A DNA stretch of 64,000 bases from Utricularia gibba (Eukaryota > Streptophyta > Magnoliopsida > Lamiales > Lentibulariaceae). Numbering within the stretch: the stretch's first letter is position 1; every line of letters begins with the position of its first letter. Where the stretch lies: positions 1,426,001-1,490,000 of the forward strand of contig NEEC01000020.1 in assembly GCA_002189035.1 (NCBI GenBank), read 5' to 3'. A program made the translations under genes and the position numbers. Below the pieces are notes generated by a model. That model did no database searches. It was not told where the DNA came from and was given only the letters and a program-made list of their open reading frames with translations. Positions 1,901-26,503 of the stretch are shown here, piece after piece.

Positions 1901-4010
1901 ATGGTTATGTGTGATCATGTGTTTGAGTCTTTTCCCTAACCCAGGGCCATCAGTCTGTATCATATAACCTGACTTCCATACTGTGTTGTAGCCTTCTTGG
2001 GTGCTGCGTCGTGGCGTTGTGCAGTTGAATTAATCTTTCTTTGCGCTCTTGCCATATAAAACAACACTCTCGCTGCATGACAGGCTTCAGTTCAGTACAC
2101 CATTTTTGTATGCTCATTCTGTCTTGCCGGAACAGTGTTTCATTTAGCGTAGACCTGGATTTCTGTAGCTCTGGACGAAGCTACTATTTCATGCCTTCAT
2201 CCTCTTATTTCATGACTACTGAAAGGAGGAAAGAAGATGCAGGAAGATTGCAAACGCTACTGATGGTGGAACGAGTAAAAAATTTGAGTTTAGAAGAAAG
2301 AATGAAACTATGCAAATATTTATTCATAGATATACTTTCGTTCATTCTTCTAGACTCATTTTTTTTAATCCTTTAATTACTTTTTTCAAGGAATCTCTTT
2401 GTCTCAATGAATATACGTTGAAGGCAGCACTATATTATTAATAAAATTACTTATCGAGACTGTTTGTTTTTTTTTTTTTTTTCATTTTAATAAGTTGTTA
2501 GAAGTAGTTTTGAATAAAAGTTTCAAGTGTCATCATCATGGGATCAATGTCTCTGTTCATAAGCCACAAGGCATTTGGTCTCAAGGGCACGTGTGTGTTG
2601 TTGGATGCTCGCAACAAGAGTTGTCTGTCACAGGATGGTTTAGAGGTTACTTTGGATATTTCAGATATTATAAGATAATTTTATCTTTTTCAATATAATA
2701 TTAAGATGATTTTTCCCAAATAATTTTTTTCATTCCAGTTTTAATATTTCTTATTTTTCAATATAATTCTTCCTCCCACAATCTTTTTCTAGTTTTGTTC
2801 AAATGAATGGGTGGTTAGTTTTTTGTTTTATGATTCTAACTTTAGTTATTTTTCTATTTTCTTTGAAATATTTTTGGGTTTGACATTTTACGATTAAATG
2901 TCATATTTGTTTTCCTTTCTGAATTAAAGAAGATGAAAGATGAATTCTATCTATTTGAATGAGAATTGAGAATTAGCAGGATGATAAACATGATTTTTGC
3001 AGTAAATTTTAAATAGAAAAAGATATGTTACATCGTAAAAATTAAGGTTTTAGCGGTAATTTCATATTTTAAGTAGTGATTGGTCGAATTTGAATTTCAT
3101 TTACAGACATGAACAAAATCAATAATTCAAACCTTGATGTAATGATTTCTTCTTAATTTTTGTGGCTAGATTACTAGATAATAAATTGAAACCACATCAA
3201 AGATCAAGAAAAACCATCTCTAGTTTAGAAAATGAAGCAACAGTCATCTGAAAAAGTAAGAAGAGGAGGGGATGAGGGTAAATGGGCAGGAAAAAAAAAA
3301 GGATTCACAGTCATACGGAGAAGAAAAAGAAAAAGAAGATTTTTAAAGGGGCAATGAGGCATGTTTTCTTCAGAGGAAGAGAATTTGTGGGAAGAAGAGA
3401 AAAAAAGAAGAAATGGGAAAGACATTTTCTATGGATAAAGAACCCAAATCTGATCAGAATCACTATTTATAGCAGATTCATGGAAAAAGAACAAATTGTT
3501 GATGCTTGTTTTTCTATTTCAAAGGAACGTTCTTTAACTTATTATTTATTTTCTGATTGCAAGATTGTTGCTATAAGAATGTTGTCCATGTATTTATATT
3601 AGCATGTTTCATCTACCTTTATAATGAGTACCTACATTAGAGTAATGCCTAGTGAAAATAGGGAAGGTGTGCTCATTAAATTCAAATTAATATTAACGAC
3701 ATTTATGTATTCTTTTCTTAATAAATCTAAGTAGAAAGAGAAATGATGAAAACACTTACCTTAGATATATTAACTTATGGTATACTAAGAGTTAAAAAGT
3801 GGTTAATAGATAAGGTTTTTGGATTGAGATCAATAGGATTTTAAACCTTGCAATATGTAGAGCTAACAATAGGGAGATTTAAAAAATCTTAGAAGACTTG
3901 AATAAAAAATTAAAAGGAAAGGATTTGGATATAATTGAATATTTTCATGATAGACTCTTGAGAGAATTAATATAAAAATTTTATTGAACACATTATCTTT
4001 GAAATCTTTA
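1901..4010. other. Intergenic, no gene recognised
   Basis: AT-rich sequence with poly-T and poly-A tracts (for example 2467-2482). The short reading frames here have no similarity that I recognise. There is an A/G-rich stretch at about 3250-3420. Likely relic transposon DNA next to the gypsy element starting near 4011. Confidence 0.5.
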
Positions 4011-16633: not shown

Positions 16634-19600
16634 TCAAACATGCAGGTAATCACAGCGAGCCCCCTTCTTACACCTGCCGTTCGCATTGTATGGACAAATC
16701 GTGTCCCTCTTGTAACCGGAACCACCGCCGCCTCCTCCGAAAGACGACGGCCTGTTCCAAGGACGGCCACCCCTTTGACCAGAAAACTGACCACCATTGT
16801 TGTTCTGATCACCGGCCCACGAGCCTTGACCTGATGGAGGCCCCCAGCCTTGGTTTGGAGCATTTCCTGGAGGTGGTGGCCCCTGGTTTCGATCACCGGT
16901 CCACGGGCCCTGACCACCTGGAGGCCCCCAGCCTTGGTTTGGTGGATTTCCATGAGGCGGTGGTGGTCCTTGGTTCCGATCACTCGTCCACGAGCCCTGA
17001 CTGCCGGATGGAGGCCCCCAGCCTTGATTTGCATTGCCATGTGGTGGTGGCGGCGGTCCTTGGACGGGCGGAGGAGGTCCGCTGGGATTTCCAGGCGGAG
17101 GACCCCATGCGTTGCTGGGCACCTGTCCTTGATTAGGAGGATTATTCCAGCCTTGAGTCGGCGGAGCCCCCCAAGCAGGATTTGCATTCCCAGGGACAAA
17201 TCCCTGCATGTTGGCACCAGTATTTCCTGCAGGAGGAGCAACCCAACCGGTTTGCTGATTTCCACCTTGTGCCCAGTTCACGTTTGTATTTGCCGGGGCT
17301 GGATTCAGCCAACCCATGTTCGTATTAGTCTGTGATGGCCCCCAGCCAGCAGTGTCATTTTCAGCTCTCATCCCCATAGAAGCAGAGTTGTCCTGAGGTA
17401 CCATGTTCCAAGAAGCATTTTGTGTAGAACCAGGAGGCATAGATTGCTGGCTTCCCTGGATAGGTCTCCAAGCATCAGGTTGCATCCCAGATGGACCTAA
17501 ATTTTGGAAGCCCCCAGATGAATTCTGAACATTTGGTGTACCCCAATTATAACCTTGCGGTTGTGACTGTGGCAGTGGAGGTGGCGGCGGTGGCTGTGAG
17601 TGTGGCTGTACAGGGGCAGGGGCACCCGAACCCCAGCCCTGATTATCAGTGTTTGGATTCTGAGTAATGGTATTCTGAACCGGGTGGGTAACAGAGGCTG
17701 GTTGTGCAACTGTCTGAACTGCAACTGGCTCACTCACGGATGCTAGCGGGGTTGGCAGAGAAGATGCAGAGTTGCTAGTCATGAGAGGCTGGGAGCTAAG
17801 AGGAGTGATAGCAGCAGTCTGAGCTACAGACGGCACTGATGCTAGATTAGGCAAAACGGTAGCTGAAGGCTGCAATCCACTGGCAGCAGCTGGCTTAATC
17901 CCTCCTGCAAGAGGGCTCCCATGTTCTACACTCCGGCTTACATTACTTTGTCCCTGAGCAGGAAATACCAGAGCACCTGTACTACTACGGCTAAACGTGT
18001 CATTGGAGAAATTTTGGAGGGAGGACAAACCAACAGAATCAGTATCAGGCCTCTCTTCACCTCGGTTTACAGATGCATCAGAGCTTCTAACCGGATGATC
18101 AACCAAACTATGTGAACGAAGAAGAGACCTAGTAGACGAGGGGCTCTGGTCAGAAAAAGGCGAACCCCTTGGGAATTTACCAGCCAAAGCATCAGTGAGG
18201 AGCACCGCATTTTCTATTTTCTCTGTGGCTCTCCAAATTTTCAGATTAGCAGGGAAGTAACCAGTGTTGTTCCATTTACGAAGCTGAACCATAGAAAAGG
18301 GTCCTTGAACTTTTCCTGATGGATCAAGATAGTGCCATATCTTTTCTGATTCATTTATCTTGAGAGACTTTTCCACTGAGGCTGGAGATGTAGACGCTCC
18401 AGAGGTTATTGAAGCAGCAACTGAAACTAATCCTGACCTGGGGCGTGGAGTCAGCTCAGAGGACTCAGATACAGTAGCAGAGTGCACCCTTCCCAAATTG
18501 TCAGATTGACGAGTTTCCTTATCTCTTCCTAGACTTGAGGTAGTCTCATATGCAATCTCAGCATTTAGACTGGAGTTGGTAAAGATGTTGCGAGATACGT
18601 TTCTTCCAGATTCTAAATTTCGGATTGAAGCTTGATTGCCGACATTGTATGGCTCCTTTGAAGGGTGCTCCACTCTAGGAGAAATGAAACCCCTTTCCCT
18701 TCTGCTCACATCAGAGCCAACGGATCGACTAAAAGCATCTGAATGCAATAGAGTAAGATAATACACTGAGTGATGCTATAAAACTGGAAAACAGGCATAT
18801 GGGATTAATGTAACAAAAAAACCTTGTTGGATGTTTTCCGCTTCACTGTCATTGTCTTCAGATTCATAGTTAGGGTCCATCTTTGGGTCTGCATGAATTT
18901 CAGGGAATTCATCTAGTCTACGTTTACGTTCTTCAGGGGCCTTCAAGAGCTGCAATTTCTCAACACATTCTCTGTGCGTGAAAATCTGTTAAGGATCCCA
19001 TGTACAGAATTACAGTAAAGTGATCATAAGAAAACATCTATATACAACACAAGAACTTAACAGCATAATTTTCCAAAAAATCCAAGAACTGCTCAGTGAA
19101 ATACTTAGTACAGGACTCATACTCATCAGCTAGAACAAATATCTTGCAAGCCACAGCTTGATTTCATTGAAAACTTACAGCAGCTTGCCAAACAAAAGCT
19201 AAGAGGAAAAAAAAAGCACATATATTGACATAACACTATGAGTGAATTCAAAAATTTATTAATAAAATGCCTGGAATAGGAGTTTCCGTACATTAGCATC
19301 ACACAAGTCAGGTCATAACACTGCATATGTCAAGTAAAAATAAGAATGATAAGCCCATTAACTTGCATGCAAACTAAAAAAGGTTCATTGACTTTCATCA
19401 GAGAAGGATATTCTTTTCTACGCCCTAAATCACTTGCCCTGTCACACAAATGACTAATCCGCAAAATCTCTGATTCCAGCAACTGCATTCATTGAAAGAA
19501 GAAAACCAAGGTGAAGCAAAATAGAAAAAAACTAAAAAAATGTTCCAAGAGTCTAGAGACATCTACATTTTTAGGGGCAATCATTTCAAAGTATCAATGC

Positions 19601-22600
19601 TTAGGCCATTCACATCTTTCAGTAGAAAAAACAAAGAACAATCAAAATCCTTAAAATTGTCGAAAGTGATTTCTCAGAGGATAAAATTATGTGCAATTTA
19701 TGAGGTTAAGGCCTGATTCTTAGAGGGTTCGAAGTATGCCTGAAAAATAAACATTAAACTATTTGATGAATAAAACATAGAGTTCAAAAAATATAGTTTC
19801 CTAAAATACAGATGATATCATCCAGTCCATGCTTCAAGACCCGGACGTATCAGAAAATGTACACAAAAGAGTTAAGGCATACCTCATTGACTCTTACCAC
19901 TTGCAGTTCCATGGCCTTGCCAAGTATCACTCCCTAGAAAGCAATATTGTCATTATTTCAACGACTATATGCAACCAAGCATGCTACTTACCACAGTAGG
20001 TGGGTTAATAAGACCACATTTGATACTCTGACGAAGGCGCTTGCATTCCTCCTATGATTTGTTATATAAAAGGCATAAATAAGGACATGCGTGCCATTCA
20101 AAAACTATATGAAAACACTACAGAGAACAACTACCACTGCATTGAAGAAAAATTAAATAGTTCAGAACAGCTCAAATTCCATGCGAAGATCCCTTATGCA
20201 TGTTGGTATAACAAAAGCAATATAAAGGAATGCAAAGGTCCAAGCATCCTATGAGAAAACCACAGATATATAGCTTCATTGCAGTGCATTATCATATGAA
20301 GCCAATAAACTAAATGGTTAAGAACATCAAAGTCAAACATATACTAATTTCATGATTTTTGTAAATTGAATATAACATAGTTTGGAAATACATCTATATA
20401 CGATTAGAGGTGGAAGCAGCACATATAACTATACATCAAAAGATAACTGGAAATACCAAAAAGCATGTCACAATAGTTTAGCTGTTTCAATGTATAAGTA
20501 TTTGCCCTGAGAAAAATTTGAAACATTAACCAAACAAGAAATACAACAGCTTTTTCTTTTTCTCATTCACCCAACATTTATATGAAAATTGGAGGTCCAC
20601 GACGCATAGCTGCAGAGCACTGTGTTTGATTCTTTTTTCATACCTCTGTAAAATCCTGATTGGAGACTGTATCAATTGATATTGTTTCAATCTTATCAAG
20701 ATTCAGTATATCCACCATGAGGTCAATGGTTTTCTTCCCAATTTTGTACGGTTCAGGTGATTTGTTTGTTCCTGAAATGAGACGAGGGGAAAATCATGGA
20801 CAAGGAAAATGCCAAAAAAAAAAAAATTTGCAACAAAGATGGGTTAATTGTTCATTAGAGGATAAAAATATATGTCAAGTTCTTACCAACAACTTGGACT
20901 AATCTGTACAGGTCTTGCTTTTGGCTGCTACCTGAAATTCTTATGCGTACAAATGTTCCAGTGACTTTATCAGGAAACGTTGCAAGATCTTCAAGTAGAT
21001 CTTCCATCAACTTTCGGCGTAGATAAATCAAACCAATATTATGCATATCAATAGCCGCATAATCATCAAGATTTGACTGAGGTGCATCACCTTTTTTGCG
21101 TGACCTACGTTTCTTATCTTTCACACCCTTTTGCATTGCGTCTGTATTGCCATCAGTGTCCAACTGTAAATTTTCAGTGTCAACAACACTACTCTGGACA
21201 TCATCATTCTGTTCATCTTTTAACAGAAAATGAGACTCAATGAGTTTTAACATTTCAAAATGTCCAACTCGAGGTTTCCCAAACAGACTTTTAAGTCTTG
21301 CATCACATACAATTTGGCTTCCACGGCGAGGGTCACGGAGTTTATTTCTCTTGATATATTCTAGCAAAAGAGCTTGCACATCAAACTGGGAGAGTACAGA
21401 TATGTCACCATCTTTCATATGTGAAACAAATTCAAGAAGTTCCTTTGATGCCCAGTCAGCATTATCATACAAAGATGTAACTCTATTCCCAGATGTAACA
21501 GTTGTGATGTGCACACCCTCGTCCTTGGTTAGGGCTTTTGGATTCTTGCCTACTTTGCGGGTTTTGGGTTTGGCAGGCTCTATATTAACGGTAGAATCTG
21601 CAGAACCAGAATCTCCATGCTTAATATCTTCTGTGTTACCAGTAGAAACCTCTGCTCCTTTAAATTGATTCTTAGCCTCCTCAATCTCAGAAGAAGAAAG
21701 TGAGAGCTTAGCCTTCAACTCTGTGTAATAATCCTTGAAAAGATACTCCCAACTGCTTCTATCATCAAAATCTACTTCAGCCTGCACAAGCCAGAAACAA
21801 TATGTTGGAAAAGAGTAAGCAGATGGCTAAAAAAGGCTTAACGAATATTTGCATTGAGAGCTGAAAAAGTGAGCGGAGAGAAATACTGCACATCACATGA
21901 TAAGAACCATAACAAAACATTACTTCACTGTTTTTGTTGATGTTTCTTAGCAGGGGAAAATTCAGGAATATACATTATCTATATATATATATATATATCA
22001 TTTAAAACAGGTGGATAGATATGATCCAAAGAATAAAAAACAAGCTGAAGAGGGAATCACATAAGTGCATACATCATCGCTTCCCTGTTGATCACTCTCA
22101 ATAAGAGTCACAGTTCTCATGCACGTCTCACAGAAACCCTTATTCCCACGAACACAGAAGATGACTGCGTCAGCATCCTTGATGCAAATCTTGCACAAGG
22201 AGTATGCACATGTATAACACATATACCAAGCATTCTTCTCACAGATGCTGCACAAATGCCAACCTGTGAAAAAGATTAAAAATATAAGGATTAACCCAGA
22301 AAATTATAGATATTCAAAAATCATTTAAAAATAAAACCACAGATGCTGAGTTCTAGGGCACAAGAAAGAAAATGAGAACTTGAATAACAAGTTCAGATTT
22401 AACTGGCAGTCTGATAGTAATTGCGCTCTAAGTTGCATAACAGTAAGCTTCGACAAGCAGCTGCAATTCCAGAAGAATCAAAAGAATTTGGTTTTGTGAA
22501 GGCAAAGAAAATTCATACCACAATTCCACCGTCCCTTAGACCTGAAGAATGCTTCATCTCGGTTTACACAGGAAGGGTGATATGCCTTTGGACAACCCCT

Positions 22601-24253
22601 GTGAATGCATCAAGGAAAGATAAACTCATAAGAAACATTAATAATAAATTTTCATTCAATCAACTCCCAGTTTTATCCAAATGTTGTATGGAGAAACAAC
22701 CTGCGACCACAAACCACAAGCTCCCCACCCTCAAAGCAAATGAAACAGACATCCTCTCGAACTTTTTTCCTTGAGGAAGCTTTCCCAGTAGCCCTAGTTA
22801 TTGGTCCACTTTTAGAAAATTTCCCTCTTTTCCGTTTTGTCCCAGTTGTTTTCCCAGATTCAACAACATCTGTTTCAGTCTCCATCTCAGTGTCCTGTGT
22901 TTCCATCTCCTCATCCCCAGTCATTGTGTCATCTTCCTCCTCTAGCAAGCCAACTGGAGAATCATGCATGCTTTGTCCTGGTTCATCTGCATCACTTGAT
23001 GCCCCCTCAGTTTGCATCTTGGCATCCTCATCCAGCATACCTTTAGGAACAAAATGTGGTACCAAGTCAGTTTCTACACCAGCATCTTCTAATTGAAAAC
23101 CCTGTAACATACCACATCCCATTTTTTGTAGCTCCATACCTGAATCTGTTTCATTTTTAGTGTTTCCTGACAGAAACTCCTCTTCAGTCCTTGCTTCCTC
23201 TTTGGTTTCCGCATCATTCACATTTTTGTCCAACTCAGAACCCTTCAGTACAATTGTATCGTTTTCTTTATCATCCAAGGACGTCTTTCTAGATTCCAGA
23301 CGCTCATCTTTCATAAAAAATTCATCCCCAGCAGTGACAGATGGCGTTTCACCAGCCTCGTAATCTCCACTAAAATTATGAACTTGGACTGGATCATTGC
23401 CAGAAACTAGATGCGAAGCCTCTTCAGTTCCCGCTGCAGATGGCACATTGCTAATGCCAATATTTTCAGTAATGCTATGATCACGAACTCCTCCATACAG
23501 AGACGTTGCATTTTGCGGATATCCCATTTCTCGATTTAATGAATCATAGACATTCTCATCACATGCATTAGAAGCAACTACCGTAGCCTCTGCATCTTTA
23601 ATTAAAGCGGAGTTGTCTGGCAACACACTATCGACATCTTCATTGTTCCCAGCATCAACCGCATCCACCTCTAATCTACAATCCAATTTATCAGCTATCT
23701 GAAAAGCTTCACTGTCCAGCAATCCTTGTTCTTTGGCATTCTGATAGAATGAAGGGTCAAATGCCTCATTATCCAATTGCATTCCATTAGTTGACTCAGG
23801 AAGTTCATCACTGATAATGCTTTGCACCTTTGCATCACCAATTTCATCCTTTAATTCCTCAAGCTTATTTTCGTGTTCAGGTTTCAAGGATTGTGGATCA
23901 GTATTTTCTCCGTCTTCTAGAGCAGCGGAAGCAGCCGCTAGTGAATTCGAGGGAATTGTCTCCTCCTTCATCTCCAGGGCAGCAGGCCGCTCGACACCCT
24001 CCAACAGAACATGCTGTTCCGCCCCCTCCGATACCACGGGTATTTCATATTTCTCCATCGCAATCGTCTTCTCAGTCGCACCCATCACAGGGTTATCAAA
24101 ATCCTCCGAATCTCCTCCCAAGCAAGCCGACCTATCCTCCAACGAGCATTTTTTCCCTTCTCCATCATCAGTGTCTCGAATCACTTCGCCCACATCGCTT
24201 TTCGATTCGCTTTCGGCGCCACTATTTGCAGTTTCCAATTTTTGGTCTTCCAT
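16634..24253 (-). CDS. NERD: NERD-type GW-repeat, PHD, SWIB, Plus-3, GYF and CCCH protein, 1762 aa
   Basis: Ten exons: 24253-22701, 22598-22519, 22263-22073, 21781-20887, 20771-20644, 20051-19992, 19933-19883, 19482-19412, 18977-18823, 18738-16634. All phases fit and give 1762 residues, close to the roughly 1770 of Arabidopsis NERD. Order: acidic N terminus (1-500), extended PHD from about 502 (VCFICFEGGELVVCGRR, GCPKAYHPSC), SWIB/MDM2 about 717-796, Plus-3 about 846-975, GYF 1194-1249 (WHYLDPSGKVQGPFS), a Ser/Pro/Gln tail with about eleven GW/WG pairs, and a final C-x7-C-x5-C-x3-H finger at 1743-1761. In Arabidopsis, NERD binds histone H3 through the PHD and AGO2 through GW motifs, and acts in RDR2-independent siRNA-directed DNA methylation in the nucleus. 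Intron 8 is U12 AT-AC; the others are GT-AG. Divergent with the CCHC gene at 25435. Also annotated in plants as CCCH protein 19/44. Confidence 0.92.
16790..17080 (-). repeat. Tandem coding repeat in the NERD GW-rich tail
   Basis: Three adjacent copies of a 27-28 residue unit containing NQGWGPPSG, then SW/PW, then DRNQGPPPP. Each adds one GW motif, so the number of AGO-binding hooks can change with unit number. The plus strand shows the same words (CCCCCAGCCTTGGTTTG and variants) three times. Confidence 0.7.
18978..19411 (-). other. U12-type AT-AC intron of NERD (434 bp)
   Basis: On the minus strand the intron starts ATATCCTT at 19411, the exact U12 5' splice consensus. It ends with branch-point-like ATCCTTAAC (18996-18988) only ten bases before the terminal AC at 18979-18978. 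Joining GA (exon 8) to G (exon 9) gives ...RRKE-HRECVEKLQLL..., matching the family, with no GT-AG alternative that keeps the frame. Confidence 0.85.
21984..22000. repeat. (TA)n microsatellite in NERD intron 3
   Basis: An uninterrupted TA run in the intron between the exons ending at 22073 and starting at 21781. Confidence 0.7.
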
Positions 24254-25434
24254 TTTCAGTCACCGTCTTCCTTGACCTCCTACTGACAAAATTCACATTT
24301 CTAAACAAATTTTCCGTAGCCGTAGCTCAACCGTGGAATACACTCTCGTTGCCCAGAAGAAGAGTGCGGTACCTACGAAAGCTTGAACTCAGGGTTTTGC
24401 AGGTCAGAGCTTCTGGGATTTCACTTTTTTTTTTTTCGGTTTTTTCACCACTTCATAAAACGATTTGCATAACCGCAGAAAGTCGATGGTTTGACAATGG
24501 GCCAAAAGTAAGGTATTTAATGGCATGCCCGGCCCGTTAAACAAGGCCCAACATTTCAATTTTACCATTTTCCCATGATAATAAATTAAAGAAGAAGAAC
24601 GCAATTTCACCAGGCTTCTTGGGCAACACCTTGCAGCAGTAGTTTTGCATCTTTGTGAATCCTACGGTTATCGGTTTTCTCGGCGAAGCACTGCGGAGTG
24701 CCTCATCTGAAGTGCGGGTTTTCTCTAGCTCTCATAACCTTTTAGTCGATTTAAACCTTATCGGAACTGATTTAAGATCTAGGTCTGTGGATTTCTTTTC
24801 GTATTTTTCGTTTTTCTTTGGGTGTTTTGTCTCTGGTTGATGCTATTCTCCTTGCTTTAATTCTACTGTGGATGACGGCTTTGTGCGGGTGAGGAAAGGC
24901 CATTAAATATCCTAATTTTGAAGTCGACGGTTTACAAGCTGTGATATTTTATGGTATATGTGATTCTTAATCTGTGCCTGCCTTGGTTTACGAATCTATT
25001 TAACAATGAGGTTGTTCGCCTTCTTCTCTTGGTTAACCACATAACTCGTTACCTTAAAAGGCAGAGGAGCTAACTTGAAGGGGATGGGGATGGAGATCCT
25101 TTGGGAACTTTTGAGGTTTTCTCAGAATACTGTTGGTGGTGCTGTAAATCTGAAGCTTTAAGCTTTATTCTTGATGTGGTTTTCCCTTTATTATGAGAAT
25201 TGATTGGCAATAAATGTAATTTTATAATGATGCATGGTGGTTTGTGTTGAAAACATGGGACCTCAGTATGGGGATCCGGTGCTTCAATCGTGAATGTTCG
25301 AGCTAAAGAGTTTGTGGGGTACATTGATGTGGTATTGGATATGTGGTTGTGGTGCCCAGGGAGGAGTCAGCGGCATTGGGGTTCGGTGATATTTTCAAGT
25401 AGTTGGTGGTTTGTTGGTTGTTTTAGTGGTGGAA
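24254..25434. promoter_or_regulatory. Divergent promoter region between NERD and the CCHC gene
   Basis: The two start codons (24253 minus, 25435 plus) face away from each other with 1.18 kb between. TGGGCC site II-type boxes lie at 24498-24503 (+) and 24545-24550 (as GGCCCA), with a further CCCGGCCCG between. A good acceptor (TTGTTTTAG) ends at 25426, only eight bases before the plus-strand ATG, so the CCHC gene probably has a 5' UTR intron whose donor lies somewhere after 24650; I could not fix it. Confidence 0.5.
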
Positions 25435-26503
25435 ATGAGCTTAGACAACAGGAGCAGGAGCAGGAGCCGGAGCAGAAGCAGAAGTCCTTTGGATCGTAAG
25501 ATCCGTACTCAGCGTTATAGCTATCGTGATGCACCCTATAGGAGGGACTCAAGACGGGGATTCAGGTTATTTTGGTCTCATTTGTATTTTGTTGCTTGTA
25601 GCGTAGGTGATCAAACAGGTGTCTGTCTGAGAAGAACTTGACCTGAAGCTGATTAGGGGGCTTTTAGGATATTAACTGGAGGATTTGATGGATTTTTTTT
25701 CATCGTTTTCTTTTTGCTTTGCATTGTATGAATAGATTTTCCCCTTTTATTAACAACTCTTGGAAATGTTAATGATGCTTTCATTCATCTTCTTTTAGCA
25801 GTCAGAGCAGCTTGTGTAAAAACTGCAAAAGGCCTGGCCATTTCGCAAGGGAGTGCCCAAATGTTGCCATCTGTCACAATTGTGGTCTTCCTGGGTGAGC
25901 ATGAAGTGATATGCATAATCAGTGGTTTCTTTAAACGCCAACATTCTGGTTTATATTTTCGTGTTGTCCAGGCACATTGCATCAGAATGCACCACCAAAT
26001 CCCTCTGCTGGAACTGTAGAGAACCAGGGCACATGGCTGGAAACTGCCCAAACGAAGGCATCTGCCACACGTGTGGAAAAGCAGGACATCGAGCCAGAGA
26101 CTGCACAGCTCCTCTCCTCCCTCCAGGTGATCTGAGGCTGTGCAATAACTGCTTCAAGCAAGGCCACATGGCAGCTGACTGTACAAATGACAAGGCCTGC
26201 AAGAACTGTAGGAAGACTGGCCATCTTGCACGTGACTGTCCAAATGATCCCATCTGCAACATGTGCAATGTATCTGGGCATGTAGCTAGAGATTGCCCAA
26301 AAGCCAATCTCATTGAAGAGAGGAGTGGTGGTTTTCGTGGAGGAGGATTTCGTGACATTGTTTGCCGGAACTGCCAGCAGGTGGGGCACATGAGCCGTGA
26401 CTGTATGATGATGACCATATGCCACAACTGTGGAGGAAGAGGTCACCTGGCCTTCGAATGCCCTTCTGGAAGACTAATGGATCGTTTCCCTCGAAGGTAC
26501 TAA
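25435..26503 (+). CDS. GIS2: Nine-knuckle CCHC zinc finger protein, GIS2/CNBP type, 251 aa
   Basis: Exons 25435-25565, 25802-25894 and 25972-26503 join in frame (251 residues). The N terminus is a short RS-rich segment (SRSRSRSRSRSP). Nine C-x2-C-x4-H-x4-C knuckles follow, for example CKNCKRPGHFAREC, CHTCGKAGHRARDC and CHNCGGRGHLAFEC, with an RGG-like GGFRGGGF spacer between knuckles seven and eight. Yeast GIS2 and animal CNBP are single-stranded nucleic-acid binding proteins of seven knuckles that act in translation; plant relatives have more. A role in RNA binding is inferred from the fold. The RS segment might allow SR-kinase control. The symbol is by family resemblance only. The second acceptor is a tandem TTTTAGCAG, so mRNAs may differ by one Ser codon. 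The protein ends RFPRRY. Confidence 0.85.

Follow-up and report, generated by a model that had tools for sequence, protein, structure and literature searches.

Positions 19411-18978 (minus strand) of the window, by which we mean the whole 64,000-nucleotide stretch of Utricularia gibba DNA analysed here, are read as a true AT-AC intron of the U12 type, excised by the minor spliceosome, a reading that we hold, from sequence, with a probability of about 0.97. We adopted it because the splice signals, the restored reading frame, the agreement of exon lengths with poplar, conservation across five genes and the minor-spliceosome genes of the same genome all point to it. A first-pass annotation had proposed such an intron at 18978-19411, and this proposal was borne out by the signals, the frame, the poplar exon lengths and four paralogs. 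The intron belongs to a known class, and its family-wide retention, in five of the five members found, is the most useful part of the result.

Splice signals and reading frame of the AT-AC intron

The intron is coding intron 8 of its host gene, 434 nt long and in phase 2; read on the minus strand, its first base is the A at 19411 and its last the C at 18978, and it starts with ATATCCTTCT and ends in ...GGATCCTTAACAGATTTTCAC. The U12-type 5' splice site, ATATCCTT (19404-19411), has C at both +5 and +6 and is predicted to pair with U11 and U6atac, while the branch site, ATCCTTAAC (18988-18996), for which pairing with U12 is predicted, is close to the textbook TTCCTTAAC and contains two candidate branch adenosines, 18989 and 18990. 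Deviations from the textbook forms were seen at position 9 of the 5' site (textbook ATATCCTTT) and at position 1 of the branch site. From the end of ATCCTTAAC to the end of the intron there are 10 bases, which fits the spacing of roughly 10-15 nt for U12 branch sites, and the 3' splice site reads TTTTCAC/GCACAG, with the AC at 18978-18979 (slashes mark splice junctions). Direct reading thus confirmed both the branch motif ten bases before the end and the AC terminus, as described in the first-pass annotation.

Joining 19412 to 18977 yields ...CGT AGA AAA GA/G CAC AGA GAA TGT..., which in phase 2 encodes RRKE-HRECVEK, so that the protein runs ...DLGRRKE-HRECVEKLQLLK... across the junction, and the terminal AC is found together with a restored and conserved coding frame. 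The earlier statement that RRKE-HRECVEK is recovered in phase across this junction therefore holds within a frame of 1762 codons.

The 5' motif of the ATATCCTT type, taken alone, occurred 5 times in the 64-kb window against 4.2 expected (not significant), and of 100 dinucleotide shuffles, 24 contained a loosely defined U12 motif pair. A significance test on the motifs by themselves was set aside as uninformative on these grounds, and with the motif at chance level the case for a U12 intron rests on position and conservation: the signals are significant because they lie at an exon boundary set by the coding frame, by the poplar cDNA and by four paralogs.

Inside the intron, a 97-base piece (window 19158-19254) was 89% identical to a site on contig C516 (L002) and also matched, in part, a site on C317 (L003). 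It is likely a repeat or transposon fragment, and may in part account for the greater length of this intron compared to those of the paralogs.

The host gene and its agreement with poplar NERD

NERD is a plant DNA-silencing factor. The gene carrying the intron occupies 16634-24253 on the minus strand, with coding exons 1-5 at 24253-22701, 22598-22519, 22263-22073, 21781-20887 and 20771-20644 and coding exons 6-10 at 20051-19992, 19933-19883, 19482-19412, 18977-18823 and 18738-16634. Joined, the ten exons form one open frame of 1762 codons, and every coding intron other than the AT-AC intron has GT-AG ends. SWIB, Plus-3 and GYF domains were each detected above the Pfam cut-off in this one protein, accompanied by PHD-like fingers (PHD models match below the Pfam cut-off), by a C-terminal CCCH motif, CPYNANGRCKKGARCDYLH, recognised by direct reading and by alignment to the paralogs, and by a GW-rich tail that was read directly. 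Given these domain matches, fingers and tail, the name NERD-type is reasonable, and a function in AGO2-linked, RDR2-independent DNA methylation may be assigned by homology. The protein resembles Arabidopsis NERD (AT2G16485) and the Populus tomentosa NERD (PtoNERD) in its SWIB, Plus-3 and GYF domains and in its putative PHD-like and C-terminal CCCH fingers. Head to head with the gene lies an open frame (25390-26503, plus strand) that contains numerous CCHC zinc knuckles, and the two starts are roughly 1-1.7 kb apart.

A PtoNERD cDNA has been cloned and aligned to its own gene, in which exons 3, 6, 7, 8, 9 and 10 measure 80, 128, 60, 51, 71 and 155 nt (PMC5475392). The matching exons of the NERD-type gene in the window are 80, 128, 60, 51, 71 and 155 nt long, equal to poplar in six of six. 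Coding exon 8 (19412-19482, minus strand, 71 nt), which ends in ...GRRKE, corresponds to PtoNERD exon 9 and to an equal exon in all four paralogs, and coding exon 9 (18823-18977, minus strand, 155 nt), which starts with HRECVEKLQ, corresponds to PtoNERD exon 10; the 71/155 nt pair is the exact product of the AT-AC junction. The poplar intron between these two exons is 1076 nt long (PMC5475392) against 434 nt here, which indicates that the exon edges have been conserved and the intron length has not. This comparison is one of exon lengths, as PMC5475392 gives lengths without junction sequences, and that paper makes no mention of U12 for the PtoNERD intron.

Paralogs with the same intron

Using the joined exon pair as a protein query, we found two paralogs in the same genome (C402 and C505), and a Plus-3 search added two more (L034 and L035) together with a one-exon Plus-3 gene, which we take to be probably RTF1/VIP5. 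An AT-AC U12 intron is present in all four family paralogs at the identical codon, in phase 2 and in each case directly after a 71-nt exon. The intron of C402 (L013) runs ATATCCTTGC...TTCCCTTAATTCATTTCCAC (187 nt) and that of C505 (L014) ATATCCTTTC...TTTCCTTAATATGTTTCCAC (224 nt), both joining RKKE-LREYVEKLQ; the intron of L034 (L034:3137-3269) reads ATATCCTTTC...TTCCTTAATTCATTGTTTTAC (133 nt) and joins WRGE-LFEYLERRRKLQ, and that of L035 (reverse complement of 3183-3402, minus strand) reads ATATCCTTAA...TGCCTTAACCTTTTAGAATTCAC (220 nt) and joins WRRE-LFEYLDQRKMLQ. As in the NERD-type gene, C stands at +5 within a full U12 motif in all four.

The intron bodies of C402 and C505, a recent pair, are 72% identical over 136 bases, and across the five genes the bodies otherwise do not align, apart from one 23-base match, while the splice signals are kept. 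Since the bodies hardly align outside the recent pair, the signals appear to have been maintained. At the protein level, C402 and C505 align to the NERD-type protein over the PHD, SWIB, Plus-3, GYF and CCCH regions, L035 is a SWIB/Plus-3/GYF gene with a GYF match, and L034 showed no GYF match in the stretch analysed. The NERD-type protein and L034 share 28% identity over 310 aligned positions, which suggests that the duplications within the family are old. From their domain content, the paralogs may tentatively be called C3H44-like and ZMP-like. As all five members found keep the codon, the phase and the AT-AC subtype, the intron was probably already there in the ancestor of the plant PHD/SWIB/Plus-3 (NERD/ZMP) family.

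Minor-spliceosome genes in the genome

Genes for U11, U12 and U6atac were each detected over the Rfam cut-off, with the 5' regions AAAGGAGAGA (U6atac), GAGUAAGGAA (U12) and AAAAGGG (U11). Duplex predictions paired the U11 and U6atac 5' regions with the 5' splice site of the intron and the GUAAGGA of U12 with its branch site. U4atac was not found in the genome with the Rfam model, and the same search detected nothing in control genomes either; its absence from the results may mean that the gene has diverged, that it falls in a gap or that the search has reached its limit.

Among protein components, a CCDC84/CENATAC homolog lies on C3, and a gene on C451 matches TXNL4B with an E value of about 1e-29 compared to 1e-10 for TXNL4A, which clearly marks it, by sequence, as TXNL4B-type, i.e. 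of the DROL1 kind. A DIM1-type gene on C414 was rejected as DROL1, being a YLS8/TXNL4A-type copy while the TXNL4B-type gene is on C451. A second DIM1/YLS8-type copy, at C414:1901848-1902361 (L016, L018, L021), reads STVFRNKH in place of the conserved STVMFFFRNKH segment and is possibly a decaying duplicate. In human cells that had lost CENATAC, 92% of the A-type minor introns were affected (PMC8280824). Work cited in PMC11039992 describes faulty splicing of AT-AC introns in Arabidopsis drol1 mutants.

Alternative splice pairs and other readings of the locus

We enumerated exhaustively the GT-AG, GC-AG and AT-AC pairs around the junction and kept those that left the frame and the downstream block intact. 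The first-pass annotation had stated that no GT-AG pair restores the frame; this was wrong as worded, as three pairs do so in the NERD-type gene, all with the acceptor AACAG/ATTTTC and each inserting YPSLMK...IFT. One of them runs from AAA/GTCAAT (19392) to AACAG/ATTTTC (18986) on the minus strand and would give RRKE-YPSLMK-IFT-HRECVEK. The accompanying warning that automated gene models are likely to go wrong here was apt, for the sole frame-keeping GT-AG alternatives are the YPSLMK read-throughs that it named. All frame-keeping GT-AG, GC-AG and other AT-AC pairs give proteins that depart from the family pattern, and none was retained.

A U2-type GT-AG intron using AAA/GTCAAT, TTA/GTTTGC or CAA/GTTAAT as donor and AACAG/ATTTTC as acceptor, with YPSLMK...IFT added to the protein, would thus preserve the frame of the NERD-type gene, but its exons would measure 90 nt or more and 163 nt, compared to 71 and 155 nt in the poplar cDNA, and its acceptor AG would come immediately after the U12 branch-site motif, at a distance of three bases from the branch adenosine. 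Nor do the paralogs agree with it: in C402, C505 and L035 the enumeration found no GT-AG pair preserving both the frame and the conserved residues, and the single frame-keeping pair in L034 adds more than 20 residues. In C402 and C505 the branch site contains a TAA in frame, and between it and the conserved LREYVEK block there is no AG, so that a GT-AG intron cannot preserve this block in either gene. We consider such an intron very unlikely. Introns with AT-AC ends that are spliced by the major spliceosome do exist, and those discussed for sodium channel genes have G at +5 (PMC2831892), whereas the NERD-type gene and all four paralogs have C at this position within a full U12 motif, together with a U12 branch site; a major-class origin is accordingly hardly credible. 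A decaying or unexpressed NERD copy, in which the motif match would be without function, is given a similarly negligible probability in view of the 1762 open codons over ten exons, the exon lengths equal to those of poplar and the U12 signals that are intact in all five genes despite their divergence.

Proposed splicing mechanism and its implications

On the favoured reading of a U12-type AT-AC intron, and from what is established about minor splicing, the minor spliceosome would remove the intron in planta. The UCCUU of the 5' splice site would pair first with U11 and afterwards with U6atac, and pairing of U12 with UCCUUAAC would bulge out an adenosine (18989 or 18990), the putative branch point; the AC at 18979-18978, about 11 nt downstream of the branch point, would serve as the 3' splice site. 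By analogy to AT-AC introns in Arabidopsis and human, removal of the NERD-type intron may depend on DROL1/TXNL4B and CENATAC. Expression of NERD would depend on the minor spliceosome, as follows from the intron class, and we infer that expression of the NERD family may fall when the AT-AC arm is limiting, which would weaken small-RNA silencing. It is further conceivable, though in our judgement improbable, that a single NERD/ZMP ancestor already had the AT-AC intron and that no member has since lost it, making the DROL1/CENATAC arm a common control point of small-RNA-directed silencing in plants; were this true, slow minor splicing would lower the NERD, C3H44-like and ZMP-like proteins together and silencing would weaken.

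An AT-AC intron at the same position in five of five members offers a simple link, open to testing, from the minor spliceosome to the machinery of RNA-directed DNA methylation. In plants without DROL1 or U11/U12 proteins, retention of this intron across the family would be expected, possibly with altered methylation at NERD/ZMP targets. Predictors that accept GT-AG introns only put NERD-family gene models at risk in plant genomes, and mis-annotation here alters a conserved stretch that closely follows the Plus-3 domain.

Comparison with known systems

Our literature search found no paper linking NERD, AT2G16485, AT3G51120 or ZMP to U12 introns, and intron databases may list the intron. With the plant U12 AT-AC introns of U12DB, ERISdb and IAOD it shares the 5' splice site, the branch site, the spacing and the AC end, and the mechanism does not differ. 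AT-AC introns had been described at the outset as a small minority even of U12 introns; a minority they are, but not a tiny one, as they account for 26% in Arabidopsis, 23% in soybean and 22% in rice (22-26% in three plants), and for 13% in maize (PMC7367187). ZMP, a Pol IV-interacting PHD/SWIB/Plus-3 protein, belongs to the same family as NERD, and in rosids its lineage has lost the GYF domain, which NERD keeps (PMC9699677); the ZMP-like L034, without a GYF match, has its AT-AC intron at the NERD position. The conserved land-plant U12 intron of CBP20 (PMC5932401) has likewise stayed at a fixed position in its gene, but it concerns a single gene, whereas the NERD/ZMP intron has a copy in every family member found.
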